Assembly: GCA_902789555.1 (NCBI GenBank)
Contig: CADAOF010000005.1
Coordinates: 1-64,000, forward strand
From: an uncultured Lachnospiraceae bacterium
GTDB lineage: Bacteria; Bacillota; Clostridia; Lachnospirales; Lachnospiraceae
Reading direction: 5' to 3'
Length of the DNA stretch: 64,000 nucleotides
Shown here: piece after piece, positions 25,906 to 47,618 of the stretch
How the letters are laid out: the number at the start of each line of letters is the position of its first letter
How positions within the stretch are numbered: the stretch's first letter is position 1
Notes under the pieces: generated by a model
Databases searched by the model: none
What the model saw: the letters and a program-made list of their open reading frames with translations, nothing else
What the model was told of the DNA's origin: nothing
Translations under genes and position numbers: made by a program

Positions 25906-25977
25906 GACTTTTTCCGCCGAGCCCGCACGGAGCAAGGCGTTTTTTTTAATGATCCTGTCAAAAAACCGAAATTTCTC

Positions 25978-26008
25978 TTGACTGTAAAGTTCCTTCACCC
26001 TTTACAAT
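25978..26008 (+). promoter_or_regulatory. MerR-type promoter with 19-bp spacer and palindromic operator
   Basis: TTGACT (25978-25983) and TACAAT (26003-26008) are separated by 19 bases, too long for normal sigma-A use but typical of promoters untwisted by MerR regulators. Between them lies the inverted repeat TGTAAAG-N10-CTTTACA (25983-26006). The gene it serves, 24 bases downstream, encodes a MerR-family protein, so autoregulation is very likely. Confidence 0.85.
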
Positions 26009-26031
26009 GGGTGCAGTCAGGGAGGTATGCC

Positions 26032-27486
26032 ATGAAGATCAAAGAACTGGAAGCTATTACCGGAATTCCGCGGGCTACGATCCGCTTCTATGAAAAAGAA
26101 GGACTTTTGTCCCCGGAGCGCAAAGACAACGGATACCGGGAGTATTCCGAAGAAGATAAAGACAAGCTGATGAAAAACAAGCTGCTCCGGCTTCTTTCCA
26201 TCCCGGTGGAATCCGTAAGAGAGCTGGAGGCAGGAAAGCTGGATCTGACTGCCTACATGGAGACGCACGTCCATGACCTTCAGCTGACAGAGAATGATAT
26301 CCGCAACGCGGAACGGGTATGCCGGGAGATCTGCACTGACCGGGCTGCCTTCGCCACGCTTGACGCCGCGCGCTACATCTCCTCTTTTGAGGAAGGAACC
26401 CGGAACGAACTGCGGGACAGCGAACAGCAGCTGTACCGGACGGATACCGTGCCCCGCGTAACAGCGCCCTGGCGGCGCTTCTTTGCCCGCATGCTGGATC
26501 TGAGTCTGTGCTCCCGCCTTCTCGGCAGCTGCCTGGTCATTTTCCGGAATGTCAACATTGGCAGACTCGGCCCGGGAGAAAGCATTCTTTGCATGTTTGC
26601 CGCCACGTTCATCATGCTCATGGCTGAACCGCTCTTCCTGCATCTTTTCGGAACGACTCCCGGGAAATGGATCCTCGGACTCAGCGTATCCGATGAAAAC
26701 GGTCACCGTCTCTCCTACAGCGAAGCATGGCAGAGGACTCTCTGGGTCTGCGCCTACGGCATGGGCCTGTCTATTCCGATCATCGGTGTGATCCGCCTGA
26801 TCATCAGCCGCAAGGCCTGCCTTCGCGGCGAGCCCCTGGTCTGGGAAGAGTACAGCGTACTGGAACTGAAGGACGAAAGATCCTGGCGCATCTTCGCCTA
26901 TGCCGGGCTTGATCTTCTGATAACGGTGGCCGGTCTGCTTGTGATCATTCGTTTTGGCGAGATGCCCCGTCACCGCGGCGACATCACCGTTGCCGAATTC
27001 AGTGAAAACTACAACCGTCTGAGCACGTTCAAACAGCTTGATTTCGACGCGGTCCTCGACGAAGAAGGCAAATGGGTGGAACGTCCCGAAGATCCGAACA
27101 GCGTTACGGTTTTCTTCCCGGAACAATATCTTCCGGAATATGAGTACGATGTCCAGGACGGCAAACTGAAAAGCATCCGTTTTCATTACGAGACGGATGC
27201 CGATTACCCCTCTGACTGTCAGGCGCACATGCAGCTTGCCCTCCGCTCTTTCGCTTTCACCGACCGCGACCTGAACGTCATAAACAACGCCGGGAAAGTC
27301 ATGGAAGAGACCGTTGCTGCCAATGCCTTCCAGCCGTTCCACTATTCTTCCGGCGGCGTCACCGTGGACTGTCAGGTGAATTATGAAGGTTATACTCCTT
27401 TTTATTCGCCATCATATCCGCTGATCCCGGACGAAAACGCAGCCGAGCGCCATTTCTCCATGATTTTCTCCGTTGCCAAAGATTGA
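26032..27486 (+). CDS. MerR family regulator fused to an RDD membrane domain
   Basis: 484 residues. Residues 1-70 are a MerR winged helix (MKIKELEAITGIPRATIRFY, NGYREYSEEDKDKL), followed by a helical dimerisation region to about 120. An RDD-type membrane domain spans about 145-310 with four to five hydrophobic segments and the signature GTTPGKWILGL. The last 175 residues appear extracytoplasmic, rich in Asp and Tyr, and are not recognised. GGGAGG precedes the start at 26032; the upstream ATG at 25978 falls inside the promoter. The gene is probably a one-component membrane-bound transcription regulator; the ligand is unknown. Confidence 0.85.
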   Translation: MKIKELEAITGIPRATIRFYEKEGLLSPERKDNGYREYSEEDKDKLMKNKLLRLLSIPVESVRELEAGKLDLTAYMETHVHDLQLTENDIRNAERVCREICTDRAAFATLDAARYISSFEEGTRNELRDSEQQLYRTDTVPRVTAPWRRFFARMLDLSLCSRLLGSCLVIFRNVNIGRLGPGESILCMFAATFIMLMAEPLFLHLFGTTPGKWILGLSVSDENGHRLSYSEAWQRTLWVCAYGMGLSIPIIGVIRLIISRKACLRGEPLVWEEYSVLELKDERSWRIFAYAGLDLLITVAGLLVIIRFGEMPRHRGDITVAEFSENYNRLSTFKQLDFDAVLDEEGKWVERPEDPNSVTVFFPEQYLPEYEYDVQDGKLKSIRFHYETDADYPSDCQAHMQLALRSFAFTDRDLNVINNAGKVMEETVAANAFQPFHYSSGGVTVDCQVNYEGYTPFYSPSYPLIPDENAAERHFSMIFSVAKD

Positions 27487-27513
27487 CCGCAGACGCCTCA
27501 GCCTTGTGCCTGC

Positions 27514-27562
27514 AAAAACATATCCCCTCCTTACTGCTTATCCGGTAAGGAGGGGATATGTT
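27514..27562 (-). terminator. Strong hairpin terminator between convergent genes
   Basis: A perfect 18-bp stem (27517-27534 with 27545-27562) with a T5 run on the minus strand. It ends transcription of the 77-residue gene and may also slow transcription of the MerR-RDD gene on the plus strand, where no T run follows. Confidence 0.85.
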
Positions 27563-27640
27563 GCTCATACGGCATAAAAGATACTTTATGCGGAACACTG
27601 TTATCTTCCTGAGTTTTCTGCAGGAAAGCGAAGGATCTCT

Positions 27641-33297: not shown

Positions 33298-34113
33298 TCA
33301 GGCCTTCGGCACCTTGATGAACGCCTGGCCGGGGTCGATGTCTTCGCGGATGGTGCGGATAATCTCGGGGGTCGGGCCTTCCATCAGCTGGGCTCTCTCG
33401 TCAACGATCAGCGGGAAGTCCGGAATGGCCGCCTTGATCTCTTCGGGCGTGGTGTAAGGATAGTAGTAGGCCAGATACATTCTCTTGGTCTCTTCGTCGA
33501 ACTTCATGATGCCCATGTCGGTAACGACCATCTGCGGGCCGCGGTTGCCGGGCAGGCCGACCTTTTCACGTCCGCCGGGGCCGTCCATCCAGCCGCAGCT
33601 GGTGATATAGTCGACCTTGTTGACGAATTTGGTCTTGTCGAGCTTGATCATGATGATCGTGTTGCAGAAGCCCGCGATGCCGTTCGCGCCGCCGGAACCG
33701 GTGAAGCGGACCTGCGGTTTCACGTAGTCGCCCTTGCCGTAGATGCAGGTGGAGTTCACGTTGCCGTAAGGGTCGATCTGGGCGCCGCCGATGAAAGCGA
33801 TCAGACGGTCGGTGTCATGCAGCCACTCGTTGGCTTCGAAGCCCACGAAGCGGATGTTCGGCCACTGCACGGCGCAGTGCGCCATGAAGCGGAGGTCGCC
33901 GACGGAACGCGGCACTTCCACGGGCGAGCAGTCCATCAGGCCGCTCTCCACGATGGGATGGCAGCTGGGGCAGATCACGGCCTTCGCCAGCGACGCGCCG
34001 ATAAGCGGCAGACCGGTGCCGACGATGACGATCTGGTTTTCCTTGATGTTCTTTGCAATGGCATAAGCCTGCATTTCGGACATCGTATATCCGACTTTCT
34101 TATAATCAAACAT
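33298..34113 (-). CDS. gctB: Glutaconate CoA-transferase subunit B
   Basis: 271 residues, CoA-transferase family I, beta type. E56 in CHPIVESGLMD is the probable catalytic glutamate that forms the CoA thioester. The enzyme moves CoA from acetyl-CoA or glutaconyl-CoA to 2-hydroxyglutarate. It follows gctA by 19 bases. Confidence 0.92.
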   Translation of the reverse strand: MFDYKKVGYTMSEMQAYAIAKNIKENQIVIVGTGLPLIGASLAKAVICPSCHPIVESGLMDCSPVEVPRSVGDLRFMAHCAVQWPNIRFVGFEANEWLHDTDRLIAFIGGAQIDPYGNVNSTCIYGKGDYVKPQVRFTGSGGANGIAGFCNTIIMIKLDKTKFVNKVDYITSCGWMDGPGGREKVGLPGNRGPQMVVTDMGIMKFDEETKRMYLAYYYPYTTPEEIKAAIPDFPLIVDERAQLMEGPTPEIIRTIREDIDPGQAFIKVPKA

Positions 34114-34132
34114 GTTCTCTTGCCTCCTGCCC

Positions 34133-35230
34133 TTAGTGTCTCGTGGAATAGCCGAGATGCGGTTCGATCCGCAGATCGGTAAGGCGCTTGCCGCCGATCA
34201 CGTTCAGCAGATCTTCGTGAGTCTTGCAGCCGTAAACGTACTTGTCCAGATAATCCTTGAAGGTCTCGGGGACTTTCGTACCGTCGGCAGCATCCTTTGC
34301 CGCCTGTTCGGCCTTCACGGCAGCCGCTTCGGCCTTCTCGTCGCCGGGCTTCGCATCCGCGGTCTTGCGGGCTTTCGCGGCAGCCTTCGCCAGCTTCTGC
34401 ACGGCGTCTTCGGCATCCACGTAGTTGGAAGCCTTGTCGTATTCCTTCAGGACCTTGTCATCATTGTCATAGTAGCCGTAGCACTGGCTGGGCCATGCGC
34501 CGAAAGGAGCGCGCACGACGGCATCGACGCATTCGCCGAAAATCTTGGTCGCGCTCGGATCGCGGCGGATGTACTCGTCGCTGACGATCTCCTCGCAGGT
34601 CACGATGGTGCGCTTTGCAGCGACCGCGATGTCGACATCATGGAATTCATCGCCCATGATGACGCAGGTGCCGTCCGGAGAGGCCTGCTGCACGTGGATG
34701 ATGGCGCAGTCAAGCTTCGGGACCGGGACCGCGACGACCTTTTCGCCCGGGTTGAAGGGGTTGTCGACGTAGGCAAGCTTCAGGTCGTCCACACTCGGCA
34801 GTTCCTTGCGCTTCTCAGGGCTGATGCCCCAGTATTCGCACAGGCCGGACCCCATCATCAGACGGACGGGAAGGAAAGGAAGGCCCAGGGAAGCGGCGTG
34901 AAGCTGCAGCATCAGGACGTCCTGGCTGTAATCTTCGTAGATGATCTCGCCCTTCTCGATGGCCGCGCGGAAACGACGGGAAACGTTGGTGTAACCGGAG
35001 TTGGCAGTGTAGCAGTTGATGTACACTTTCACGCGCCCTTCGCCGATCAGCATGTCCCAGTCGCCGCCGGCAGGACCCGCCCAGACGGTAAAGTCACCCT
35101 TGCCCTGGCGCAGGATCTCATACGCCGCAGCATAAGGCTTCCGGTTGGTGGTGAAGCCGCCGAAGCAAATGGTGTCGCCGTTTTGCACGTACTTCTCAAC
35201 GGCTTCCGATAAGCTACATACTTTGTTCAT
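34133..35230 (-). CDS. gctA: Glutaconate CoA-transferase subunit A with a low-complexity insertion
   Basis: 365 residues. The core (about 1-270) has GDTICFGGFTTNRKP and the CoA-transferase fold. Residues about 272-318 are an Ala/Lys/Glu/Asp-rich segment predicted to be helical, inserted before the conserved end (KTHEDLLNVIGGKRL). The family is usually about 320 residues, so the extra length is this segment. First gene of the six-gene operon, with its own promoter. Confidence 0.92.
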   Translation of the reverse strand: MNKVCSLSEAVEKYVQNGDTICFGGFTTNRKPYAAAYEILRQGKGDFTVWAGPAGGDWDMLIGEGRVKVYINCYTANSGYTNVSRRFRAAIEKGEIIYEDYSQDVLMLQLHAASLGLPFLPVRLMMGSGLCEYWGISPEKRKELPSVDDLKLAYVDNPFNPGEKVVAVPVPKLDCAIIHVQQASPDGTCVIMGDEFHDVDIAVAAKRTIVTCEEIVSDEYIRRDPSATKIFGECVDAVVRAPFGAWPSQCYGYYDNDDKVLKEYDKASNYVDAEDAVQKLAKAAAKARKTADAKPGDEKAEAAAVKAEQAAKDAADGTKVPETFKDYLDKYVYGCKTHEDLLNVIGGKRLTDLRIEPHLGYSTRH

Positions 35231-35272
35231 AAAATGATATCTCCTTTCGGCTTATCATATATATTCGACTTT

Positions 35273-35301
35273 ATAATAGCAAGGAAGCCCCCTTTTGTCA
35301 A
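35273..35301 (-). promoter_or_regulatory. Sigma-A promoter of the gct-gcd-hgd operon
   Basis: On the minus strand, TTGACA (35296-35301), a 17-base spacer and TATTAT (35273-35278), about 40 bases before the gctA start codon. Divergent from the crt promoter about 100 bases away. Confidence 0.78.
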
Positions 35302-35400
35302 ACCAAAGAGCGTGAAATTTGTCTTTTTGAAAGACGTTTTCGGCGTCATTTATTTTTGTATATCACGGCTTCCCGAGCCGGGACTTTTCCGTTTTTTTGC

Positions 35401-35460
35401 TTGACGAAAGCCGCCCCGGTAGCATACAATAACGAAAGGTATAAATACGCCGCAAGGCGT
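35401..35460 (+). promoter_or_regulatory. crt promoter and GCAA-tetraloop leader hairpin
   Basis: TTGACG (35401-35406), an 18-base spacer and TACAAT (35425-35430). The leader contains a 5-bp hairpin closed by a GCAA tetraloop (35447-35460). The core of the same hairpin occurs in the bcd leader at 40565-40576. Confidence 0.7.
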
Positions 35461-35485
35461 CTGTGAAACGAAAGGAGTCCCCGTT

Positions 35486-36262
<777 letters not shown>

Positions 36263-36298
36263 GACTGCCGCGCCCGCAGCGGCACCCGTCACCGTTAA

Positions 36299-36336
36299 TG
36301 TCATCCTGAGGAAGGCTCTGCCTGACGAAGGATCTT
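36299..36336. repeat. Intergenic repeat of the TGTCAT...TGAG...GAAGGATC type
   Basis: The gap between crt and hbd holds TGTCATCCTGAGGAAGG followed by GACGAAGGATCTT, a pattern I associate with dispersed intergenic repeats in Firmicutes. A diverged relative in reverse orientation appears to lie just after hbd (about 37207-37246). Confidence 0.5.
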
Positions 36337-36368
36337 AAACAAAAATCATTTTTAGGAGGAAACCTATC

Positions 36369-37205
36369 ATGAAAGTAGCAATTTTTGGCGCCGGCACCAT
36401 GGGCAGCGGTATCGCTCAGGTCTTCGCTGCTAAAGGACACACCGCTCTGATGTACGCTTCCAGCGTTGCATCCGCTCAGCGCCACAAAGACAACCTGGCC
36501 AAGTCGCTGCAGAAGCGCGTCGAAAAGGGCAAAATGACTCAGGAAGCCGTTGATGCTCTGCTGGCCAACGTCCTCGTGGAAGAAAAGTCCGCTGCTGCCG
36601 ACGCCGATCTGGTTATCGAATGCGTCAAGGAAGAAATGGCCACCAAGCGTGAGCTGCTGAACGAGCTCGATGCGATGTGCAAGGAAAGCACCATCTTCGC
36701 GACCAACACCTCTTCTCTGTCCGTAACTGAGATGGGTCTCGGCCTGAAGCACCCGGTGATCGGCATGCACTTCTTCAACCCCGTTCCTTCGATGAAGCTC
36801 ATCGAAGTCATCCGCGGCGCGAACACCACCCAGGAGACCTTCGATTTCATTTACAACCTGAGCAAAGAGATCGGAAAGGATCCGATCGAAGTCGCGGAAG
36901 CTCCCGGCTTCGTCGTCAACCGCGTCCTGATTCCCGAGATCAATGAAGCGATCGGCCTCGTCGAGACCGGCGTTGCCTCTGTCGAAGACATCGACAAGGC
37001 CATGAAGCTCGGCGCCAACCACCCGATGGGCCCGCTGGAACTCGGCGATTTCATCGGCCTGGACGTCTGCCTTGCCATCATGGACGTTCTTTACAGCGAG
37101 ACCGGCGATCCCAAGTACCGCCCTGCTCTCCTGCTGAAGAAGATGGTCCGCGCGGGCAAGCTTGGCCGCAAGTCCGGCCAGGGCTTCTACGACTATCGCA
37201 AATAA
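36369..37205 (+). CDS. hbd: 3-hydroxybutyryl-CoA dehydrogenase
   Basis: 278 residues. The NAD-binding loop is [11 protein letters not shown] at residues 8-18, and the catalytic His is in [15 protein letters not shown]. It oxidises 3-hydroxybutyryl-CoA to acetoacetyl-CoA or the reverse. GGAGGAAA precedes the start. The last 33 bases of the gene, stop included, are repeated at 40390-40422 beyond the low-GC island. Confidence 0.96.
37173..37205 (+). repeat. 33-bp direct repeat, copy 1 (3' end of hbd)
   Basis: The final 11 codons of hbd including TAA. Copy 2 at 40390-40422 differs by one base (TAT to TAC, a silent change). The two copies bracket the AT-richer island. Confidence 0.9.
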
Positions 37206-37247
37206 GGGATGATCCCCTTCGGAGCGGCCTTCGGGCCGCGCAATGAC

Positions 37248-37289
37248 AAAGGAGGGGCGGCTGCAAAAGGCCGCTCCCTCCTTTGTTTT
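37248..37289 (+). terminator. Rho-independent terminator after hbd
   Basis: A stem of about 14 bp with one unpaired or mismatched base (37248-37261 with 37270-37284), followed by TTTGTTTT. It ends the crt-hbd transcript before the island. Confidence 0.8.
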
Positions 37290-37325
37290 CCCTTGTTTCT
37301 TTCTCACTGGATCTCTACCATTTCC

Positions 37326-37826
37326 CTACGGCACCGTAAAAACAAGCTGTCCACTTCGCTCTGTTGGTCCGACAACGGATGAATCCTTCCCCGCCTCTAT
37401 TATTTCTAAAAACATTTCGGAAATATCAATCATATATGTTCCCGCCTTAAGCTCATAATCTGGCAGTATCGGTACATCTCGTTCCGCACCTCTCTCAATG
37501 GTTCGTTCAATGCCAGCCACCGTTAATGTCCCCGCAGCAGATGTATAAAGTGTTTGCCATTTTCCGCCATTTGACCGAAGGTAAAGAAGGACCGGTTCCC
37601 CCAAAACCAATACATACTTCGTATTGTTTTTCACGCTTAAAAATGCTATTCTTCCTCTGCCATAGTTGAGCTGAAATGTAACGTCACCTTCTACCCCGTC
37701 AAAGTGAAATGAATACTCCTTGACGGTATCCTCGTTTTCTGCATTGCTCCCCTTTGTACAACCAGTAGAGACAGAAATAACGAGAAGCAAAATCATTATC
37801 GACCAGTAGAGTTTCGTTTTGTTCAT
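37326..37826 (-). CDS. Secreted lipoprotein with an Ig-like beta domain
   Basis: 166 residues. A lipoprotein signal ends in SVSTGC (Cys at about 23). The rest is beta-rich (FLSVKNNTKYVLVLGEP, LKAGTYMIDISEMF) and resembles bacterial Ig-like domains with a GEP strand and a KAGTY turn; this is a fold-level guess. It follows the secreted protease by 17 bases in the same transcript, so a role in holding, protecting from or inhibiting that protease is possible. Codon use includes TTA and TCA, unlike the surrounding genes. Confidence 0.7.
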   Translation of the reverse strand: MNKTKLYWSIMILLLVISVSTGCTKGSNAENEDTVKEYSFHFDGVEGDVTFQLNYGRGRIAFLSVKNNTKYVLVLGEPVLLYLRSNGGKWQTLYTSAAGTLTVAGIERTIERGAERDVPILPDYELKAGTYMIDISEMFLEIIEAGKDSSVVGPTERSGQLVFTVP

Positions 37827-37843
37827 AACAGATTCCGTTTTTG

Positions 37844-39010
37844 TTAATTCAAGGAAAATCCAGCTGTAGACAGGTATTGATAAGGTGTAAAATAACCCAT
37901 AAGTTCACTTTCTTCTGTCACTCTGCGACCATGAAGAACGCCGCAGTATATTACCGTTGATCCACTTAAACAAAAAAATGGACCACCACTGTCTCCGTTT
38001 TGTATATTTCCACTGTACACATGAATTTTGGTCATCCCTTTTAAATACACAGATGAATCAGCATACACTTGAACCCCTGTTGAAACAACTGTTCCATAGC
38101 CAACACTTGCCGTCGTCTTCCCGTAAAATTTTACAGTGGTCCCCACTGAGGGACTTTGACAACCCGAAATATAATACGACAGAATCTGATTCGACCCGGA
38201 AAAATTACCGGACATAATGGGAACAAATGAAAAATCTCCGTATCCGTAATTTGTATAGCGCACATATGTCGTCTGACCAATCTGCGCCCCTGAATATTTA
38301 ATTACATCTCCTACTGTCTGTCCGCCATGTCCGCAAGTTACAAGTACACTGCCACCGTTGTATTTCCCACACACGCTTAACGTCATTGCACATCCTGCAT
38401 TTACATTTGAAATAGCCATTCCGCCTTTCAACGCGGTCGTTGCTGTTTCAGTCGTGATGCCTTTGACCAGAGTCACTGGATACTCATCAAATTTTAAGCC
38501 ATCATTTTTAATACGATTCAATAAGGCTTCAGAAACGCCTATTTCTATGCGATTTTCCTTTTCTTTAACTTCGTAAGACTGAATGGGTTCATTATATTGT
38601 TGTTCTATAGACTCGGCAATATAATCAATAAGTCCATATAATTGATTTTTGGAATAGGTACGGGTAACATATTCCACATACTGTTTATAATCTCCTAGTA
38701 TTGTGTCATAATACGCAATCGTATTTTGATCGTCAGCTGTCAGTGCAATAATCAGTTTAGCACCCTCAATCCAAATGCCGCATAACGTATCGGGGTAAAT
38801 GTAGTTTCCGACTTCATCCTGCTCAAATGAGCCTGTCAGTACGCCGCTCGCCGCTACAGCAAATCGTTGCAGTTGCATTTGATTCTCATAGTCTTTCTCC
38901 GTTTTTATTCCGTCTTCAGCCTTCATTCTTTTCCCTGAAAAAAGACAAAGAAAGGCTGCCAACAAAAGGAACAACACTAAAAACTGAACATTCCGCTTTT
39001 TCATTTTCAC
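37844..39010 (-). CDS. Secreted chymotrypsin-fold serine protease
   Basis: 388 residues. A signal peptide covers about 1-32 and a possible propeptide reaches about 195. The protease domain has the triad H228 (VTCGHGG), D259 (GYGDFSF) and S341 (NGDSGGPFF), as in S1 enzymes of the streptogrisin/alpha-lytic type. Five cysteines in the mature region may form disulfides. AGGAGG precedes the start. It is divergent from the padR gene, and its AT-richer codon use differs from the GC-rich flanks, pointing to acquisition from elsewhere. Confidence 0.88.
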   Translation of the reverse strand: MKMKKRNVQFLVLFLLLAAFLCLFSGKRMKAEDGIKTEKDYENQMQLQRFAVAASGVLTGSFEQDEVGNYIYPDTLCGIWIEGAKLIIALTADDQNTIAYYDTILGDYKQYVEYVTRTYSKNQLYGLIDYIAESIEQQYNEPIQSYEVKEKENRIEIGVSEALLNRIKNDGLKFDEYPVTLVKGITTETATTALKGGMAISNVNAGCAMTLSVCGKYNGGSVLVTCGHGGQTVGDVIKYSGAQIGQTTYVRYTNYGYGDFSFVPIMSGNFSGSNQILSYYISGCQSPSVGTTVKFYGKTTASVGYGTVVSTGVQVYADSSVYLKGMTKIHVYSGNIQNGDSGGPFFCLSGSTVIYCGVLHGRRVTEESELMGYFTPYQYLSTAGFSLN

Positions 39011-39060
39011 AACCTCCTACAACTTAAACCACCGATACTGTTTGGCCATATTATATTGCC

Positions 39061-39088
39061 ATTATAATTCCATCCGCTCATATGTCAA
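39061..39088 (-). promoter_or_regulatory. Sigma-A promoter of the protease/lipoprotein genes
   Basis: On the minus strand, TTGACA (39083-39088), a 16-base spacer and TATAAT (39061-39066). The divergent padR gene has a TATTATAAT-like -10 near 39135-39143, so PadR could control both directions. Confidence 0.75.
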
Positions 39089-39170
39089 TAATTATTTAAA
39101 TATTTTATGTGTTTTCTTTTTTGGGCATGTGTGGTATTATAATTAAGTACAGACATCAGGAGAAGTATTT

Positions 39171-39515
39171 ATGGGAAGCTACACACCTAATTATTTCCGC
39201 AAAGGTCTTCTTCCGCTTATTGTCCTCAGCCTTTTGAAAGAAAAGGACATGTATGGATATCAACTGGTCAAGGAGATTGCAGAGCAAAGCGGCGGCGTCA
39301 TCACTACGCAGGAGGGAGCTTTATATCCTATTTTGTATTCACTAAGCAAAGCTGGATATATCAGCGAGCAAACCGTTAAGGTTCATACCCGTCAGGTTCG
39401 TGTCTACTATCATCTTGAACCCGAGGGGGAAGACCATTTGAGTCAACTATTATATGAATACTATCAAGTGGAAGATGCCATGAAAAATCTGTTGCCCGGA
39501 GGAATAACAAAATGA
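39171..39515 (+). CDS. PadR family transcriptional regulator
   Basis: 114 residues. A winged helix (YFRKGLLPLIVLSLLKEKD, MYGYQLVKEI, TQEGALYPILYSLSKAGYI) matches short PadR proteins. These are usually repressors of adjacent membrane or export genes. It overlaps the next gene by four bases (ATGA), typical of PadR-HAAS pairs. Confidence 0.93.
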   Translation: MGSYTPNYFRKGLLPLIVLSLLKEKDMYGYQLVKEIAEQSGGVITTQEGALYPILYSLSKAGYISEQTVKVHTRQVRVYYHLEPEGEDHLSQLLYEYYQVEDAMKNLLPGGITK

Positions 39516-39940
39516 GCGGTTTTAATCGGTATATCCGAAGTATCAGTTCCTTTCTGCACTGTACTGAATCAGAACGTCAATACTATGCGGACCATATAGA
39601 AAAAAGCCTTGGTGAAGATGCGCAATCGTTGTGTTATGAGGAAATCGTCCACCGTTTGGGAACGCCTGAGGAATGGGTGGTTGCACAGGTTGAAAACCTG
39701 GATGCGGGAACAATCATACTTAGATCAGTCAACGCTTATCGGAGAATGCGCAGGAATACAATTATAGTTCTCACCATATGTTTGGCTTTTATTGTTGTGT
39801 GTCTTGGATTATTCATATGGGATCATAATAACAGATTTGTTGGCGGTTATTATTCAGGTCCCGTTGTGGATTCCTATTCTCTTGACATTGACGAGTCAAG
39901 TCCAAGTTTAATTCTTTCCACCGAGGAGGTCCAACCATGA
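39512..39940 (+). CDS. HAAS/DUF1700-like single-pass membrane protein
   Basis: 142 residues. The N-terminal helical domain (about 1-65, with LGTPEEWVVAQVE) resembles the HAAS signalling domain that accompanies PadR regulators. A membrane helix spans about 88-105 and a short extracellular tail follows. Probably a membrane partner that modulates PadR. It overlaps both neighbours by four bases. Confidence 0.7.
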   Translation: MSGFNRYIRSISSFLHCTESERQYYADHIEKSLGEDAQSLCYEEIVHRLGTPEEWVVAQVENLDAGTIILRSVNAYRRMRRNTIIVLTICLAFIVVCLGLFIWDHNNRFVGGYYSGPVVDSYSLDIDESSPSLILSTEEVQP

Positions 39941-40353
39941 AAAAAGTATTTGCTCTGTATCTTTCTATTATGCTCATCGTTCTGCCATGTTTTTCGGCAT
40001 GGGCTGCCACTGACGACATGATCTTTACAACAGCTATAGTGTCAGAACGTACCCGCAGCACAGTAACGGGTCATAAATCTTATTCCCCTACCGACGGAAG
40101 CGGAAGTACTATTGCCACAGCAACTTTGACAGGCAGTTTCACCTTTAACGGAACCACTTCAAGCTGCACTGGTGCCTCCTGTGATGTTACGATTTACAAC
40201 AATTCCTGGAGCACCAAATCGGTTAATGCATACACTTCTGGCTATTCTGCTATAGCTGAAGTTACCATAATACGCAAACTGCTTTTTATCACGGTAGAGA
40301 CTAAGAGCTTCTCTATTACTCTTTCCTGTGACAGATATGGAAACTTAACATAA
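39937..40353 (+). CDS. Small secreted protein of unknown function
   Basis: 138 residues with a clear signal peptide (cleavage near CFSAWA-AT, about residue 23). The mature part is Ser/Thr-rich and beta-rich, with three cysteines (SSCTGASCD and LSCDRYGN). I do not recognise the family. It is coupled by ATGA overlap to the HAAS protein, so it is the likely output of the PadR/HAAS cassette, and it faces the secreted protease genes across the divergent promoter. It could be a surface protein, a protease substrate or an inhibitor; none is shown. Confidence 0.75.
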   Translation: MKKVFALYLSIMLIVLPCFSAWAATDDMIFTTAIVSERTRSTVTGHKSYSPTDGSGSTIATATLTGSFTFNGTTSSCTGASCDVTIYNNSWSTKSVNAYTSGYSAIAEVTIIRKLLFITVETKSFSITLSCDRYGNLT

Positions 40354-40389
40354 AGTATTGCACTTCAACAAAGGCATCTTACCCGTCAT

Positions 40390-40422
40390 TCCGGCCAGGG
40401 CTTCTACGACTACCGCAAATAA
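40390..40422 (+). repeat. 33-bp direct repeat, copy 2 (orphan hbd tail)
   Basis: 32 of 33 bases match the last 33 bases of hbd, including the stop codon, but no hbd sequence precedes it: similarity stops abruptly at 40390. It is followed by a terminator. It is either a remnant of a second hbd copy or the far end of an insertion. Confidence 0.9.
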
Positions 40423-40451
40423 TGGTCAGGGTCCCTGAGACATGACAAAGG

Positions 40452-40475
40452 GGCGGCCTCCGGGCCGCCTTTTTT
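40452..40475 (+). terminator. Rho-independent terminator after the island
   Basis: A 7-bp GC stem (40452-40458 with 40463-40469), TCCG loop and T6. It may be the original hbd terminator displaced by the island, or the terminator of the secreted-protein cassette. Confidence 0.85.
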
Positions 40476-40507
40476 AATGTAAAAACAGAGAAACCGCGTT
40501 TTTCCCG

Positions 40508-40577
40508 TTGACAGTCCGCATTTTATACGCTACATTGTATATTGATATAAAAGCAAAGAAAAAACGCCGCAAGGCGC
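40508..40577 (+). promoter_or_regulatory. bcd promoter and GCAA-tetraloop leader hairpin
   Basis: TTGACA (40508-40513), a 17-base spacer and TACATT (40531-40536). The leader carries the hairpin CGCC-GCAA-GGCG (40565-40576) followed by CTTTTTAT, the same core as in the crt leader. Confidence 0.7.
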
Positions 40578-40633
40578 TTTTTATCTTTTCTTCAGTATGT
40601 TATTTATTTAACAATATCTCAGGAGGTTGCAAA

Positions 40634-41779
40634 ATGGATTTTGCCTTAAGCCAGGAACACGCCATGGCGCGCGACCTGTTCAAGAGCTTTGCCGAGAACG
40701 AAGTAAAGCCCCTTGCGCAGGAGATCGATGAAGAAGAACGTTTCCCGTCGGAAAGCGTCGCCAAGATGGCGAAGCTCGGTTTCCTCGGGATCGCGGTCCC
40801 GAAGCAGTACGGCGGACAGGGCTGTGATTACCTGACCTACACCATGTGCGTGGAAGAACTCGCCAAGGTGTGCGGTACCACCGCTGTCGTCCTCTCCGCT
40901 CACACCTCTCTGTGCCAGATGCCCATCCTGCATTTCGGTACCGAGGAGCAGAAGCAGAAATACCTCGTCCCGCTTGCCAAGGGTGAGAAGCTCGGCGCGT
41001 TCGGCCTGACCGAACCCGGTGCCGGCACTGACGCCGCAGGCCAGCAGACCAAGGCCGTGCTCGACGGCGATGAATGGGTCCTGAACGGAACCAAGATGTT
41101 CATCACCAACGGCTACTACGCCGATACCTATGTCATCTTCGCCATGACCGACAAATCGCTCGGCCGCAAGGGCATCTCTGCCTTCATCGTGGAAAAGGGC
41201 ACGCCCGGCTTCACCTTCGGCACGAAGGAAAAGAAAATGGGTATCCGCGGCAGCGCGACCTATGAACTCGTCTTTACCGACTGCCGTATCCCGAAAGAGA
41301 ACCTCCTGGGCAAACCCGGCGAAGGCTACAAGATCGCCATGGATACGCTGGACGGCGGCCGTATCGGCATTGCCGCACAGGCCCTCGGCCTTGCGGAAGG
41401 CGCGCTCCAGGTCACTGTCGATTACGTAAAGACCCGCAAGCAGTTCGGCAAGACGCTGGGCCAGTTCCAGAACACCCAGTTCCAGTTAGCCGACATGGCG
41501 ACCCGCTGCGACGCGGCCCAGCTGCTCGTCTACCGCGCAGCCATCGACCATGACATTCCGAAGAAGACCAGCGACGGCATGACTTCCTCCATGGCCAAGC
41601 TTTATGCCGCGGAGACCGCGATGTACGTGACCACCAAGGCTGTCCAGCTGCACGGCGGCTACGGCTACATCCGCGACTATGACGTGGAACGCATGATGCG
41701 CGACGCCAAGATCACCGAGATCTACGAAGGCACTTCCGAAGTGCAGCGCATGGTCATCGCGAAGAATCTGCTGAAGTGA
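40634..41779 (+). CDS. bcd: Butyryl-CoA dehydrogenase (acyl-CoA dehydrogenase)
   Basis: 381 residues from the ATG at 40634, preceded by CAGGAGG; the longer frame begins inside the -35 element and is rejected. Acyl-CoA dehydrogenase fold with FGLTEPGAGTDA, the catalytic base E365 in IYEGTSEVQ, and FAD contacts QLHGGYGYIRDYDVER. It reduces crotonyl-CoA to butyryl-CoA. Followed by etfB and etfA, the usual clostridial arrangement for electron-bifurcating Bcd-Etf. Confidence 0.94.
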   Translation: MDFALSQEHAMARDLFKSFAENEVKPLAQEIDEEERFPSESVAKMAKLGFLGIAVPKQYGGQGCDYLTYTMCVEELAKVCGTTAVVLSAHTSLCQMPILHFGTEEQKQKYLVPLAKGEKLGAFGLTEPGAGTDAAGQQTKAVLDGDEWVLNGTKMFITNGYYADTYVIFAMTDKSLGRKGISAFIVEKGTPGFTFGTKEKKMGIRGSATYELVFTDCRIPKENLLGKPGEGYKIAMDTLDGGRIGIAAQALGLAEGALQVTVDYVKTRKQFGKTLGQFQNTQFQLADMATRCDAAQLLVYRAAIDHDIPKKTSDGMTSSMAKLYAAETAMYVTTKAVQLHGGYGYIRDYDVERMMRDAKITEIYEGTSEVQRMVIAKNLLK

Positions 41780-41795
41780 TAAGGGGGAATAAACC

Positions 41796-42581
41796 GTGAA
41801 TATCGTTGTTTGCATCAAACAGGTCCCGGATACTGCCGGCGGCGTAAAATTCAACCCGGACGGCACGCTTGACCGCGCCGCCATGCTTGCCATCATGAAC
41901 CCCGACGACAAGGCCGGCCTGGAAGCCGCCCTTCGTCTTAAGGATGAATACGGCGCCAAGGTCACCGTCGTGACCATGGGTCTGCCGAAGGCCGACGCGA
42001 TCCTCCGCGAAGCCATGGCCATGGGCGCCGGCGACGCCGTTCTGGTCACCGACAGAGTTCTCGGCGGCGCCGATACCTGGGCTACCTCCCAGACGCTTGC
42101 CGGTGCGCTCCGCGCTCTGGACTACGACCTCGTCATCACCGGCCGTCAGGCCATCGACGGCGACACCGCACAGGTCGGCCCGCAGCTGTCCGTGCACCTC
42201 GGCCTGCCCATCGTCAGCTATACCCAGAAGCTTAAGATCGAAGGCGACTACGTGATCGCCGAGCGCATGTTCGACGACCGTCATCACGTGCTGAAGGTCA
42301 AGATGCCCTGCCTGCTGACCGCTCTTTCCGAACTCAACGAACCCCGCTACATGACTCCTGGCGGCATTTTCGAAGCGTTCCAGAAACCCGTCACCATAAT
42401 GGGCCGCAAGGACCTTGTGGACACGCTGGATTCCAACATCGGCAAGGTCGGTTCCCCGACCCAGATCGCCAAGGCGTCCGACAAGGTCCGCAAAGGCGCC
42501 GGCACCCAGTACATCCCCGAGGATGCGACCGATGCCGCTGAGTACATCGTTGGCAAGCTGAAAGAAAAGTTCATCATCTAA
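41796..42581 (+). CDS. etfB: Electron transfer flavoprotein beta subunit
   Basis: 261 residues, EtfB family, with VCIKQVPDT at the start and the nucleotide-binding GRQAIDGDTAQVGPQL. It pairs with EtfA and binds a flavin; in bifurcating Bcd-Etf complexes it takes electrons from NADH. 16 bases after bcd. Confidence 0.95.
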   Translation: MNIVVCIKQVPDTAGGVKFNPDGTLDRAAMLAIMNPDDKAGLEAALRLKDEYGAKVTVVTMGLPKADAILREAMAMGAGDAVLVTDRVLGGADTWATSQTLAGALRALDYDLVITGRQAIDGDTAQVGPQLSVHLGLPIVSYTQKLKIEGDYVIAERMFDDRHHVLKVKMPCLLTALSELNEPRYMTPGGIFEAFQKPVTIMGRKDLVDTLDSNIGKVGSPTQIAKASDKVRKGAGTQYIPEDATDAAEYIVGKLKEKFII

Positions 42582-42593
42582 GGAGGCGGAAAC

Positions 42594-43649
42594 ATGAATC
42601 GCGAAGAATATAAGGGCGTCTATGTATACGCCCAGCAAGTCGACAATAAAGTCAGCAATATCGCGCTCGAGCTGCTCGGCAAGGCCAAAGCGCTGGCCGA
42701 CGACCTCGGCAGCGAAGTGGTTGCCATGCTCCTCGGCTCCGACATCAAGGATCAGGCCCAGATCCTCGCCGAATACGGCGCAGATAAAGTCATCGTAGTG
42801 GATCACCCGTTCCTGAAGGAATACATGACCGAACCGTACACCCAGGCCATTTCCGCGATCATCCGCGAATTCAAGCCTGACGTCGTGCTCTTCGGCGCGA
42901 CCGCCATCGGCCGTGACCTTGCTCCCTGCGTCGCTGCCACCGTGCACACCGGCCTGACCGCCGACTGTACCAAGCTGGACATCGGCGACTTCCCCATGAC
43001 CCCTATCCCGGGCAAGGAGACCCTGCATAAGCAGCTGCTCATGACCCGTCCCGCCTTCGGCGGCAATACCATCGCCACCATCGCCATTCCGGATTTCCGT
43101 CCGCAGATGGCCACGGTCCGTCCGGGCGTCATGCAGAAGCTTCCGCGCAATAAGGAAGCAAAGGCCGAGATCATCGATTTCGACGCGCATCTCGAGAAGA
43201 ACAACCGCTACGTGGAGATCCTTGACGTCGTCAAGAAAGTCTCCGATTACGTGGACATTCAGGACGCCAAGATCCTCGTTTCCGGCGGCCGCGGCATGCA
43301 GAACAAGGAAAACTACGAGAAGTACCTTCGTCCTCTGGCAAACCTGCTCGGCGGACAGGTCTCCTCTTCCCGCGCGGGCGTCGACCAGTTCGGCATCCCG
43401 AAGGAACTGCAGGTCGGCCAGACCGGCAAGACCGTGCGTCCGAAACTTTACATTGCCTGCGGCATTTCCGGCGCCATCCAGCACCTGGCCGGCATGGAAG
43501 AATCCGATCTCATCATTGCCATCAACAAGGATGAGACCGCTCCCATCTTCGACGTGGCCGACTACGGCATCGTGGGCGACCTCTTCCAGATCATCCCGAT
43601 CCTGACCAAGATGGTCGAACAGGAACTGGCGAAGAAGGCTGAGATGTAA
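42594..43649 (+). CDS. etfA: Electron transfer flavoprotein alpha subunit
   Basis: 351 residues. The C-terminal FAD-binding domain has [32 protein letters not shown] and the family signature [17 protein letters not shown]. It forms the Etf heterodimer with EtfB and delivers electrons to Bcd. 12 bases after etfB; AGGAGG precedes the start. Confidence 0.96.
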
Positions 43650-43664
43650 GTTTCGTCCCGCATA

Positions 43665-43703
43665 CGGAAAGGCATGGTCTCCGGGCCATGCCTTTTCCGT
43701 TTT
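43665..43703 (+). terminator. Rho-independent terminator after etfA
   Basis: A 13-bp stem with one bulged base (43665-43677 with 43686-43699), then TTTT. The ribosome binding site of the next gene follows immediately. Confidence 0.8.
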
Positions 43704-43713
43704 AAGGAGGATA

Positions 43714-44820
43714 ATGATGGAATACAGAAAAACCGTCGTCCTGAAGGACGGCAGGGAATGCATCTTAAGAAGCGGTACGGCGGCTGACGCACAGGCGGTG
43801 CTGGACAATTTCATCCTGACGCACGCCCAGACGGAGTTTCTGACGTCCTATCCCGATGAGATCCGCTTCACCCTCGAACAGGAAGCGGACTATCTCGCAA
43901 AGCGGGCGGAAGCGCCGAGGGAGATCGAATTGCTGGCGGAGCTGGGCGGCAAAATTGCCGGAACTGCCGGCATCCACGGCATCGGTTCCTATGAGAAGGT
44001 CAAGCACCGTGCGGGCTTCGGCATCAGCCTTGACGAAGCATTCTGGGGACTCGGCATCGGCAGGGCGCTCACCCGCGCCTCGGCCGAATGCGCGAAGGCT
44101 GCAGGCTATGAGCAGCTGGAACTGGAAGCCGTCGCAGAAAACGCCAGGGCGGTCATGCTCTACAAAACCGAAGGATTTAAGGAATACGGCCGGAATCCGA
44201 AGGGATTCCGCCTCCGGAGCGGCGCCTTCCAGGAGACCGTCCTCATGCGACTGGATCTGCTGCGGGGAAATGGCCCTGCGGAGCCCCCGGAAGAAAAGCT
44301 GACATTGACCGAGCCGACGCCGGAACAGGAGAAAGAGATCCTCGCCTACCGGCAGGAGTTTCTCGACTCCGGCGACTCCATGGACGGGACCGGCTCCCTC
44401 AGGCGCTGTGAAAACGCCGCGCAGTGGTTTGAAGAGATCGAAATATTCCGCAACCCGGCAGCTGTCCCCGAAGGCAAGGTACCGTCGACCCAGTTCGTCT
44501 TCGTCCGCGAATCGGACGGCAAAGTCGTCGGCATGCTGCAGTTCAGGCATTATCTGAACGATTATCTCCGGCAGTTTGCCGGACACATCGGCTATTCGGT
44601 AAGACCGAGCGAACGCCGGAAAGGCTACGCGGAGCAGATGCTGAAGGCTGCTCTTCCGCTCTGCCGGGCATTCGGCCTTGACCGCGTCATGATCACCTGC
44701 CGTGACACGAACGAAGGGAGCCGCAGGACCATCCTTGCGAACGGCGGCGTCTACGAATCGACGGCCTATGAGCCCGACAGACAGGTGAATCTCCAGCGCT
44801 ACTGGATCGATCTGGCCTGA
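43714..44820 (+). CDS. Tandem GNAT acetyltransferase
   Basis: 368 residues with two GNAT-type halves. The N-terminal half (about 1-190) has the acetyl-CoA loop region GLGIGRALTRASAECAK. The C-terminal half (about 195-368) has VRPSERRKGYAEQML. Two-domain GNAT proteins of this sort occur in Firmicutes; substrate unknown. AAGGAGG precedes two tandem ATGs. It sits after the etfA terminator, so it may rely on read-through or a promoter I cannot see. Confidence 0.85.
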   Translation: MMEYRKTVVLKDGRECILRSGTAADAQAVLDNFILTHAQTEFLTSYPDEIRFTLEQEADYLAKRAEAPREIELLAELGGKIAGTAGIHGIGSYEKVKHRAGFGISLDEAFWGLGIGRALTRASAECAKAAGYEQLELEAVAENARAVMLYKTEGFKEYGRNPKGFRLRSGAFQETVLMRLDLLRGNGPAEPPEEKLTLTEPTPEQEKEILAYRQEFLDSGDSMDGTGSLRRCENAAQWFEEIEIFRNPAAVPEGKVPSTQFVFVRESDGKVVGMLQFRHYLNDYLRQFAGHIGYSVRPSERRKGYAEQMLKAALPLCRAFGLDRVMITCRDTNEGSRRTILANGGVYESTAYEPDRQVNLQRYWIDLA

Positions 44821-44897
44821 CGTTTTTCTCCACACGAGACTTTCGGCCGGCCAAGTTCTGTTTCCCGAAATTTTTTGCGATTTTTTCAAAAAAGTGC

Positions 44898-44926
44898 TTG
44901 ACAAGCGAAAAACACATGTGTAAAAT
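44898..44926 (+). promoter_or_regulatory. Sigma-A promoter of the T-box/ABC transporter operon
   Basis: TTGACA (44898-44903), a 17-base spacer and TAAAAT (44921-44926), about 15 bases before the T-box stem I. Confidence 0.85.
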
Positions 44927-44934
44927 CCCGGGCA

Positions 44935-45213
44935 TAAACCGATGACGGAGGATAGTAATTCTCTCTCCCCTGACCACAGCGAGCCGCAGACGGTGAAAGG
45001 CGGCGTCAGCGAAAGAATGAACGCGCTCCCGAGGGCAAACTGAACCGGCTTCAGCCGAAGTAGGGGAGACAGAGTGGTTCTCTGTAGAAGAAAACCGGCG
45101 TCTTGTCAGAGACGCGCAGAGGGCATGCGCAAGGCGCATGAAGCCGGGTGGTACCGCAGGAATTACAGCCTGTCCCGACATTGTAAAAAACAGTGTCGGG
45201 GCGGGCTTTTTGA
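44935..45213 (+). ncRNA. T-box riboswitch, probably reading tRNA-Arg
   Basis: Stem I elements are visible: GATAGTAA (S-turn side), GAGCC...GGTGAAAGGC in the distal part, and GAACGCG then CTCCCGAG on the descending side. The T-box bulge TGGTACCGC lies at 45149-45157; its variable T expects discriminator base A in the tRNA. The terminator is a 16-bp stem with three G-U pairs (45168-45183 with 45191-45206) and T5. The codon after GAA at 45022-45024 is CGC (Arg). The alternative register after the earlier GAA gives AGA, also Arg. Uncharged tRNA-Arg should therefore raise expression of the transporter operon downstream. Confidence 0.9.
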
Positions 45214-45259
45214 TTTCCTGACAGAACGAAAGCCCCCGGCACGGAAAGAAGGAGAAATC

Positions 45260-46195
45260 ATGAAAAAAACAAGCAAGACCCTCGCCATCCTCCTGACCGT
45301 CATCCTCTGCGCCGCTCTTCTCGGCGCCTGCGGCAGCAAACCGTCCTCCGGAAAGACCGGAAAGGACTCTACCTACGCCTATCTTCTGGATACATCCTCT
45401 CTGAAGAAGCCGGAGCTCGATCTGAAAAACCCGAGCGGCGTGCTGAAAGACGTTCTCGACCGGGGCGTCCTCCGGATCGCCACCTCTCCCGATTACCCGC
45501 CGGCTGAATTCATCACCGAGAACGGGACCGTGTACGGCGCTGAAATGATGCTCGCCAAGTACGCCGCGGACTGTCTGGGCGTCGACCTCGCCATCGAGAC
45601 CATGGATTTTAACGGGACGCTGATCGCCGTACAGACTGGGAAAGTTGACCTCGGTGTTTCCGGCTACGGCTGGAAGGCCGACCGCGCCGAGAGCTTCGAG
45701 CTCACCACCGGCTACGTCGGCGACCCGGACGAAGCCGAATACCATACCCTGATCGTTCCGGCCGGACAGGAAGGCAATTACAACTCCTGCGCCGATTTCG
45801 TCGGGAAGCACATCCTCGCGCAGGCCGGTTCCCTCCAACAGATGTACGTGGAGGATCAGATCCTGGCCATCGATCCTGACAAGAAGACCGAGCTGGAATT
45901 CGTATCCACGCTGGATCAGGCCATCCTCGGCCTCTCCGCAGGCAAGTGCGATGCCGTGGCCCTGGACGGCACGACGGCGGAACAGTACGTGAAGCAGTCC
46001 GAAGGCAAGTTCGCCCTTTCCGGCGTACACTTCGACCTTTCCCTCTACGATGATTACGAAGGTACGGTCATGGCCATCAAGAAGGGTGAGACCGCTTTCC
46101 TCGAACTCATCAACAGCATCATCGCCGCCGTGAAGGAAAACGGCTACTACGGCGAATTCTATAAGACGGCCAAGCAGCAGGCCGGCCTGGAGTAA
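45260..46195 (+). CDS. Amino-acid ABC transporter substrate-binding lipoprotein
   Basis: 311 residues from the ATG at 45260 with AGAAGGAGA upstream; the open frame continues back into the T-box but has no ribosome site. The lipoprotein signal ends in LLGAC (about residue 22). A type-2 periplasmic binding fold (SBP family 3) follows with GVLRIATSPDYPPAEFI, LAIETMDFNGTLIA and KCDAVALDG. Substrate is a polar amino acid; the T-box suggests arginine. Confidence 0.92.
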   Translation: MKKTSKTLAILLTVILCAALLGACGSKPSSGKTGKDSTYAYLLDTSSLKKPELDLKNPSGVLKDVLDRGVLRIATSPDYPPAEFITENGTVYGAEMMLAKYAADCLGVDLAIETMDFNGTLIAVQTGKVDLGVSGYGWKADRAESFELTTGYVGDPDEAEYHTLIVPAGQEGNYNSCADFVGKHILAQAGSLQQMYVEDQILAIDPDKKTELEFVSTLDQAILGLSAGKCDAVALDGTTAEQYVKQSEGKFALSGVHFDLSLYDDYEGTVMAIKKGETAFLELINSIIAAVKENGYYGEFYKTAKQQAGLE

Positions 46196-46216
46196 AGGCG
46201 CGGAAGGAGGCCTCCG

Positions 46217-46882
46217 ATGGGCAAAGGACTCTTTGAAGTACTTTTCGAATACTGGCCGATCTTTCTGAAAGGCCTGTGGGGCACGCTGAAATACGCCTTC
46301 ATCGCCGTGACGCTCGGCAGCATTCTGGGCGCTCTCGTTGCCATTGTGCATCTGTCAAAGAAAAAAGCGGTATCGTCTCTCGCCGCGGTCTACGTGAACG
46401 TCCTCCGCGGAACGCCGCTCCTCGTGCAGATGTACATCTCCTACTACTTCATCCCCATGGCGATCCCGGCGTTAAACAGCATCGACAAGATCTACTACGT
46501 GATGCTGGCGCTGACCTTAAACTCGAGTGCATACGTTGCGGAGATCATCCGCAGCGGCATCGGATCCGTCGACCGCGGCCAGGCGGAAGCTGCTCGTTCG
46601 CTGGGGCTATCGGGCGGACAGACGATGACCCGCATCATCCTGCCGCAGGCGGTCAAGAACATCCTGCCGGCGCTCGGCAACGAATACATCGCCATGATCA
46701 AGGAGACCTCGCTTGCCGGCACCTTCATGCTGTACGAACTGATGTACACCCGGACCATCCTGGCCAATAAGTATCTGGTCTGGCAGCCGCAGCTCATCAT
46801 CGCGGGCATCTACCTGGCCGTCACGCTCCTGCTCTCCGCCGGAGTCAAGAAAATGGAAAAGAGGTTGAGCGTCAGTGACTGA
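46217..46882 (+). CDS. Amino-acid ABC transporter permease
   Basis: 221 residues of the HisM/GlnP type, with about five membrane segments and the EAA loop [17 protein letters not shown]. The conserved [11 protein letters not shown] is present. It lies 21 bases after the binding protein and overlaps the ATPase gene by 8 bases. Confidence 0.95.
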
Positions 46883-47618
46883 GATCGGTATTCCCTTAAT
46901 TGAAACGGTCGGCCTGACCAAGAAGTTCGGCGAGCTGGATGTGCTGAAAGGCATCAGCGAACGCATTTACAAAGGTGAAGTGGTCTCCGTGATCGGCCCG
47001 TCGGGCGGCGGAAAATCCACCTTCCTGCGCTGCCTGAACCTGCTGGAAACACCGACCTCGGGCAAGGTCCTTTTTGAAGGCGCGGAACTTTCCGAAAAGT
47101 CCACCGACCTCGACGCGTACCGCCGGAAGATCGGGATGGTCTTTCAGCAGTTCAACGTCTTCCCGCATCTCAAGGTGATCGACAACATCACCCTCGCCCC
47201 GGTGCTGACCGGGAAGATGAGCAGGGAAGAAGCCAACGCCCAGGCGCTCGAACTGCTGGAGAAGGTCGGTCTCGGCGACAAGGCGGAGGAATACCCCCGC
47301 AAGCTCTCCGGCGGGCAGAAACAGCGGCTCGCCATCGTCCGCGCCCTGGCCATGCAGCCGGACGTGATGCTCTTCGACGAGCCGACCTCCGCCCTCGACC
47401 CCGAGATGGTGAAGGGCGTGCTGGAGGTCATCCAGAAGCTTGCCGAAAGCGGCATGACCTGCGTGATCGTCACACATGAAATGGGCTTTGCCCGGAAGGT
47501 CTCGGGCCGCGTGCTCTTCATCGACGGCGGCGTGATCGCCGAATCCGGAACGCCCGAAGAGATCTTCGACCACCCGAAAAACCCCAGAACGCAGGAATTC
47601 CTCGCGCAAGTCCTGTAG
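46875..47618 (+). CDS. Amino-acid ABC transporter ATP-binding protein
   Basis: 247 residues. Walker A is GPSGGGKST, the signature is LSGGQKQR, Walker B is [12 protein letters not shown], and the switch His is in [10 protein letters not shown]. GlnQ/HisP type. It powers the permease next to it; third gene of the T-box operon. Confidence 0.96.

Follow-up and report, generated by a model that had tools for sequence, protein, structure and literature searches.

The locus described here lies in a contig of an uncultured Lachnospiraceae bacterium (GenBank assembly GCA_902789555.1, contig CADAOF010000005.1). Positions 1 to 64,000 of its forward strand form the window, i.e. the whole stretch of DNA that was analysed and to which all coordinates refer. 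In this window, an island of five genes separates hbd, the gene of 3-hydroxybutyryl-CoA dehydrogenase, from bcd, and the last 33 bp of hbd occur a second time at the far side of the island. The features that matter most for the origin of this arrangement are the two gene ends and the sequences behind them, which are compared below with the genomes G005 and G010 of the same genus:

36369..37205, plus strand: hbd, 3-hydroxybutyryl-CoA dehydrogenase, intact (Pfam 3HCDH_N and 3HCDH; 33-bp match)
37173-37205, plus strand: left copy, the final 33 bp of hbd (33-bp match)
37206..37300, plus strand: terminator region behind the left copy (best match: post-hbd terminator of G005)
40390..40422, plus strand: right copy, an orphan repeat of the final 33 bp of hbd (same sequence as the hbd end in G010)
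40423..40517, plus strand: terminator and leader also present in G010 (3 substitutions in 40390-40517)

A duplicated gene end bordering DNA of foreign composition

The two copies form a direct repeat that is built from the end of the target gene, 33 bp long and identical at 32/33 positions, the one difference being a silent TAT versus TAC at 37196. With up to three mismatches allowed, the 33-mer has two sites in the 2.26-Mb assembly, both at this locus, and no third copy of the hbd tail was found anywhere in it. Left of 40390 the similarity falls off abruptly, with 7/12 preceding bases matching, which we regard as near chance. The match and the genome-wide count thus confirm what a first-pass annotation had read from the letters, namely that the 33-base end of hbd including its stop recurs at 40390-40422 with one silent change, and that the similarity stops sharply at the left edge of the second copy. 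Nothing can be read from the fact that the similarity ends at the stop codon: G005 and G010, both free of an insert, likewise diverge directly after the hbd stop.

Between the two gene ends, and up to bcd at the right flank, the following genes are found:

37326..37826, minus strand: putative lipoprotein, 166 aa (open reading frame; VSTGC lipobox by eye; Big_14 match below cut-off)
37844..39010, minus strand: trypsin-like protease, probably exported, 388 aa (Trypsin, E 0.0014, 18.9 bits versus a cut-off of 20.6)
39171..39515, plus strand: PadR-family regulator (PF03551, E 6e-20)
39512..39940, plus strand: HAAS-like protein with a single hydrophobic segment by eye (HAAS PF22564, E 0.0043, below cut-off)
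39937..40353, plus strand: small protein, 138 aa, with a signal-peptide-like start by eye (open reading frame; no family match at the limits used)
40634..41779, plus strand: bcd, acyl-CoA dehydrogenase, right flank (open reading frame; gene order conserved in relatives)

At the right flank, bcd is followed by etfB and etfA; these gene names are presumptive. The G+C content drops from ~0.58 to 0.38-0.46 between ~37.3 and 40.5 kb, and its value at third codon positions (GC3) is 0.38 in the five island genes versus 0.80 in eight neighbours. The codons TTA, CTA and TCA occur 16, 3 and 19 times in the 948 codons of the island genes, versus 3, 0 and 0 times in 2761 codons of the eight flanking genes, which bears out the earlier remark that the use of these codons sets the five genes apart. 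The same annotation had placed an AT-richer island at 37173-40475; its foreign composition holds in G+C content, GC3 and codon use, but the AT-rich DNA does not start at the left copy, since it begins near 37.3 kb, beyond the G+C-rich terminator behind that copy. No integrase or recombinase was found among the five island genes in Pfam, NCBIfam and PHROGs scans, in agreement with the earlier statement that the island has no visible integrase.

The hbd-bcd interval in relatives and the two terminators

An hbd-like match is present in 15/16 genomes of the genus, the window genome included, G009 and G015 having a more distant paralogue only, and the region downstream of the hbd orthologue was compared in 12 genomes besides the window. 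In G010 and G005, hbd, terminator and bcd follow each other without interruption and with one tail copy, and 209 bp and 231 bp, respectively, lie between the genes. The empty site that the first-pass annotation had predicted, with a single 33-bp end, therefore exists in two relatives, and an interval of ~0.2 kb in these genomes compares with 3.4 kb in the window. Elsewhere the interval holds other genes: it measures 1.4 kb in G001, with a Uma2-type gene, and 8.6 kb in G008, with MarR, PCC, DNA-alkylation-repair and altronate-dehydratase-type genes among others, so that relatives differ in the accessory DNA that lies between these two core genes. In the remaining 8 genus genomes, bcd lay outside the stretch that was taken. 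In the 15 other genus genomes, the island DNA itself gave nothing but short matches near PadR, in three of them.

Among the genomes and loci examined, an orphan tail was seen in the window only. A second hbd tail is missing from the loci of both G001 and G008, where nothing besides the hbd end itself matches the own tail at more than 20/33 and 22/33 positions, respectively. The tail pattern matches 11/16 genus genomes, twice in the window genome and once in each of 10 others, there always at the end of hbd; the other five have no match within 3 mismatches. An orphan tail was likewise absent from the 77 readable ones of 80 named hbd loci (threshold 26/33, within the stretch covered), which partly come from the same genomes as the genus set; the single strong second tail match, in L144, is the end of a full-length inverted hbd paralogue that is 56% identical to the query. 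The search for other islands ending in the same 33 bases, which had been suggested at the outset, came out negative in these genomes and loci.

In two more distant genomes (L105 and L107), hbd and bcd are separated by gaps of 3.5 and 2.0 kb, with no second hbd tail, and the variability of the interval may extend beyond the genus. Another segment of the window, at 25848-27637, is ~1.6 kb longer than in G010 and G005 and contains a MerR-like gene (by eye); no duplicated gene end was noticed there, and none was searched for.

What distinguishes the two gene ends is the sequence behind them. When the region after the left stop was aligned from the stop with 12 relatives, G005 came out best with a score of 27.7, followed by G001 with 15.8 and G010 with 15.3, and 51 other gene ends of the window reached at most 15.3 against the G005 sequence in an anchored alignment, versus the 27.7 of the left hbd end. 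The right copy with its terminator, on the other hand, scored 89.0 against G010, with all 33 bp identical and 3 substitutions in 128 bp. The two hbd ends that flank the island thus seem to carry the terminators of two lineages, and they look like the alleles of two lineages. If G005 shows the native form, the hbd terminator would have stayed undisturbed, with the island behind it, and the second tail would have arrived together with the island or later. If, instead, G010 shows it, a chromosomal hbd end of a relative and its terminator would have been part of the incoming DNA. Under either native form, the left end is, to judge from its sequence, unlike the end of an integrative element.

The flanks are mosaic as well. 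Substitutions relative to G010 amount to 1.1% (26/2356) over 34850-37205, 7.4% (63/849) over 34001-34849, and 4.1% (286/6973) over 40390-47362. Within the 843-bp alignment of hbd with G010, the last 331 bp contain 5 substitutions and the preceding 512 bp none. Just upstream of bcd, the window agrees with G005 at 123/134 aligned bases and with G010 at 119/144, and G010 shares features there with G001 (by eye). We take these patterns to mean that the locus has probably recombined repeatedly.

Possible origins of the second gene end

The explanation that we favour, and to which we give about an even chance, is homologous recombination between relatives with one illegitimate joint, in a variable spot that is free of integrases. 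It starts from what is directly observed, namely two empty sites, two lineage types of terminators, foreign composition and patchy flank identity, and adds a recombination route and a direction of transfer that we infer. The accessory island would consist of a PadR-HAAS-secreted protein cassette, a protease and a lipoprotein, set in the variable hbd-bcd interval, and its borders would result from homologous recombination between relatives, one end having been joined illegitimately at 40390. This could have happened by homology-facilitated illegitimate recombination (HFIR), or a fragment could have circularised and entered by single crossing-over. Under this reading, the right copy would be what is left of another lineage's hbd allele, with the terminator of that lineage still behind it, and would not be an attachment site. 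As the two hbd ends seem to belong to two lineages, such an event would fit better than a phage-like attachment site.

Parts of this process have precedents. Many transfer hotspots are described as lacking integrases and as showing recombination at flanking core genes (in the part of PMC5635113 used here), and the present locus shares with them the variable DNA between conserved genes, the island without mobility genes and the patchy flank identity; it differs by the duplicated gene end at one border, and few genomes were compared here. A double crossing-over alone should leave no such duplicated gene end. In HFIR, homology joins one end, whereas the joint at the other is illegitimate; a linear fragment may also become circular and enter by single crossing-over (both PMC3240628). 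HFIR has further been suggested as the way in which the displaced 3' end of a gene comes to lie behind an insert (PMC5361080). The likeness to these cases lies in one border that seems to be in DNA homologous to relatives while the other is abrupt, and in the gene-end stump beyond the insert, whereas the event is here deduced from a natural locus with three close genomes.

Several points weigh against our explanation. HFIR is rare, with 3 events in 10^10 recipients in E. coli (figure from PMC3240628), and orders of magnitude rarer than homologous recombination (as a passage in PMC5361080 has it). The polarity rests on three close genomes only, the named relatives are metagenome assemblies, and ~35 well-aligned bases account for most of the resemblance between the left terminator and that of G005. 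The direction of transfer cannot be fixed, because upstream of bcd it is G005 rather than G010 that stands nearer to the window, and G010 has features in common with G001 there. A donor of the island was not found in the family sample, the genus genomes or the contig scan; a search of the genome contigs with the protease found no relative, and a protease match of any kind occurs in 2/150 genomes of the family sample, the own genome included. Finally, the 33-bp repeat matches known att repeats in size and place.

An unlikely alternative is that an ancestor with a G005-type terminator gained the island together with an hbd tail and a G010-type terminator, and that G010 later deleted the island between the 33-bp repeats. 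One deletion would indeed turn the window form into the G010 form, in which hbd is directly followed by the G010-type terminator, and the ends fit; but the joining of the hbd tail to the island is left unexplained, and the 5 substitutions relative to G010 in the last 331 bp of hbd speak against a recent excision from this haplotype.

Slightly less probable is that a tyrosine recombinase, since lost or acting in trans, inserted the island site-specifically at the 3' end of hbd, with the element restoring the gene end. The 33-bp repeat spans the exact hbd end with its stop, an empty site is available in G010, and phage-integrase genes are present in other parts of the genome (PF00589 with 9 matches, 7 of them above cut-off). 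There is also a precedent in streptococcal integrative and conjugative elements (ICEs) with site-specific tyrosine integrases, which are flanked by repeats of 12-54 bp, those in rplL and guaA containing the exact gene 3' end (from the part of PMC4701971 drawn on here). The window resembles the rplL and guaA cases in a direct repeat of that size range containing the gene end, and in an intact target gene, but differs in that neither integrase nor conjugation genes were found, that a terminator of chromosomal type stands at the left end, and that the site is not recurrent in the set examined. None of the five island genes encodes a recombinase, and none of the 9 PF00589 matches lies on this contig, serine recombinases not having been searched genome-wide. 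Site-specific integration is further opposed by the missing third tail copy, by the 10 other genus genomes with one copy each, where hbd ends, and by the 77 hbd loci free of an orphan tail. Nor does the sequence behind the left copy support it, as this sequence is most like a relative's chromosomal hbd terminator, and an element would not be expected to end in this way. Of the first-pass proposal of integration at a gene 3' end, the topology, with a restored end on the left and a displaced one on the right, would hold if the G010 form was the recipient; the site-specific route lacks a recombinase in the island and orphan tails in the other genomes and loci examined, and is at odds with the left terminator. 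That a small non-autonomous cassette used the hbd 3' end as attachment site and was moved in trans by one of the integrases of the genome, carrying a complete sensor-regulator-secreted-output module and its own protease, strikes us as decidedly improbable.

The second possibility raised by the first-pass annotation, a remnant of a second hbd copy, comes close to the explanation favoured here, insofar as the right copy is read as the stump of another hbd allele. In its literal form, in which an older hbd-island-hbd arrangement was reduced to the last 33 bp of the second gene, it is improbable. The right tail retains its own terminator, as a true gene end would, but two full hbd copies around these genes were present in no locus examined, and in none of the relatives examined does a complete further hbd stand where the window has the island. 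Two of the 80 loci, L118 and L144, show another long match to hbd, and the one inspected, in L144, is the inverted paralogue. An assembly artefact from mixed strains is highly improbable: the named relatives are metagenome assemblies and the window genome is in 38 contigs, but a false join needs sequence shared by both sides, and none is visible at 40390 beyond the repeat itself.

Other candidates were rejected. Transposition with a 33-bp target duplication was rejected, as transposons are not known to make target duplications of this length and as the left end is chromosomal in type. No abundant repeat was seen that would make the joint a common extragenic repeat; TGACAAAGG is found behind each of the two hbd ends and at one further place in the window, and the longer pattern TGACAAAGGN{0,4}GGGC matches exactly at two sites of the genome, of which one lies behind the left hbd end. 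The window contains no tRNA, and 36000-41000 has no Rfam match. The island DNA had no match in a plasmid collection, and the protease, the only gene tried, had none in a phage collection.

A recurrent PadR-HAAS-secreted protein cassette

The last three island genes belong to a combination that recurs in the family. A profile of the small secreted protein has matches in 22/397 family genomes, the own genome included, at 30 places. The neighbourhoods inspected comprise 22 of the 29 places outside the window, seven being left out, and the genus loci in G001 and G002, i.e. 24 in total. PadR is present in 22/24 of them, the other two being cut by contig ends, HAAS in 20/24, and the order PadR, HAAS, secreted protein on one strand in 17/24; a 25th locus, in G004, has PadR and HAAS without the secreted protein. 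The cassette stands at 39171-40353 of the window and at L158, L159, L161, L162 and L195-L214. The genes of PadR, the HAAS-like membrane protein and the small secreted protein thus make up a cassette that recurs, with a patchy distribution, in the family. The secreted protein has a core of ~110 residues, in which two Cys and one Trp are invariant across five aligned sequences. Scans against Pfam, NCBIfam, PADLOC and PHROGs gave no model that matched it at the limits used. A PADLOC scan of the whole cargo gave nothing, and a PHROGs scan gave a single weak match, for PadR. The HAAS-like protein scores 17.8 bits where the cut-off is 27, whereas the match of the adjoining PadR is clear, and it resembles proteins that adjoin PadR in other genomes.

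According to one proposal (in the portion of PMC11237479 used here), HAAS-PadR pairs offer an alternative to two-component systems, and because of this proposal we infer that the window cassette may be a membrane-sensing regulator with a secreted output. As in the dyad described there, the PadR of the window directly adjoins the HAAS-like protein; the window cassette differs in that the HAAS match is below the Pfam cut-off, and in that the product of its third gene, small and secreted, is not among the partners which that portion of the source names.

Neither the protease nor the lipoprotein of the island was found beside the other cassettes in the neighbourhoods inspected. The island protease has His (TCGHGG), Asp (YGDFSF) and Ser (NGDSGGP) motifs by eye, and a comparison with the PDB gave chance-level matches only, the best one (E 0.26) being a serine protease. 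Its N-terminal part (about residues 13-181) has distant matches in the same genome, at G000:C14:31404-31880 (L048) and on G000:C11 (L050) and G000:C31 (L051), and one distant protease-like match in this genome adjoins sigma-factor-like and papain-like peptidase genes (by eye). A general link of the cassette to butyrate genes was considered and rejected, as hbd or bcd is near in only 2/25 non-window neighbourhoods (G004 and G024), many of which are cut by contig ends. In L160 (G004), PadR-HAAS lies within ~5 kb of etfA, which stands behind bcd-etfB, and in L161 (G024) within ~5 kb of ech-hbd-bcd.

For the genus, the hbd-bcd interval appears as a variable spot within the butyrate locus, and for the family, the analysis points to a recurrent, unnamed PadR-HAAS-secreted protein cassette. 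The locus offers a readable example of how an att-like duplication of a gene end can be a recombination scar, and the discriminating test is whether the sequence behind each copy belongs to the element or to the chromosomes of relatives. Read in this way, the sequences suggest a locus that is ordinary in kind, i.e. a recombination scar between bacterial lineages rather than a precisely inserting mobile element.

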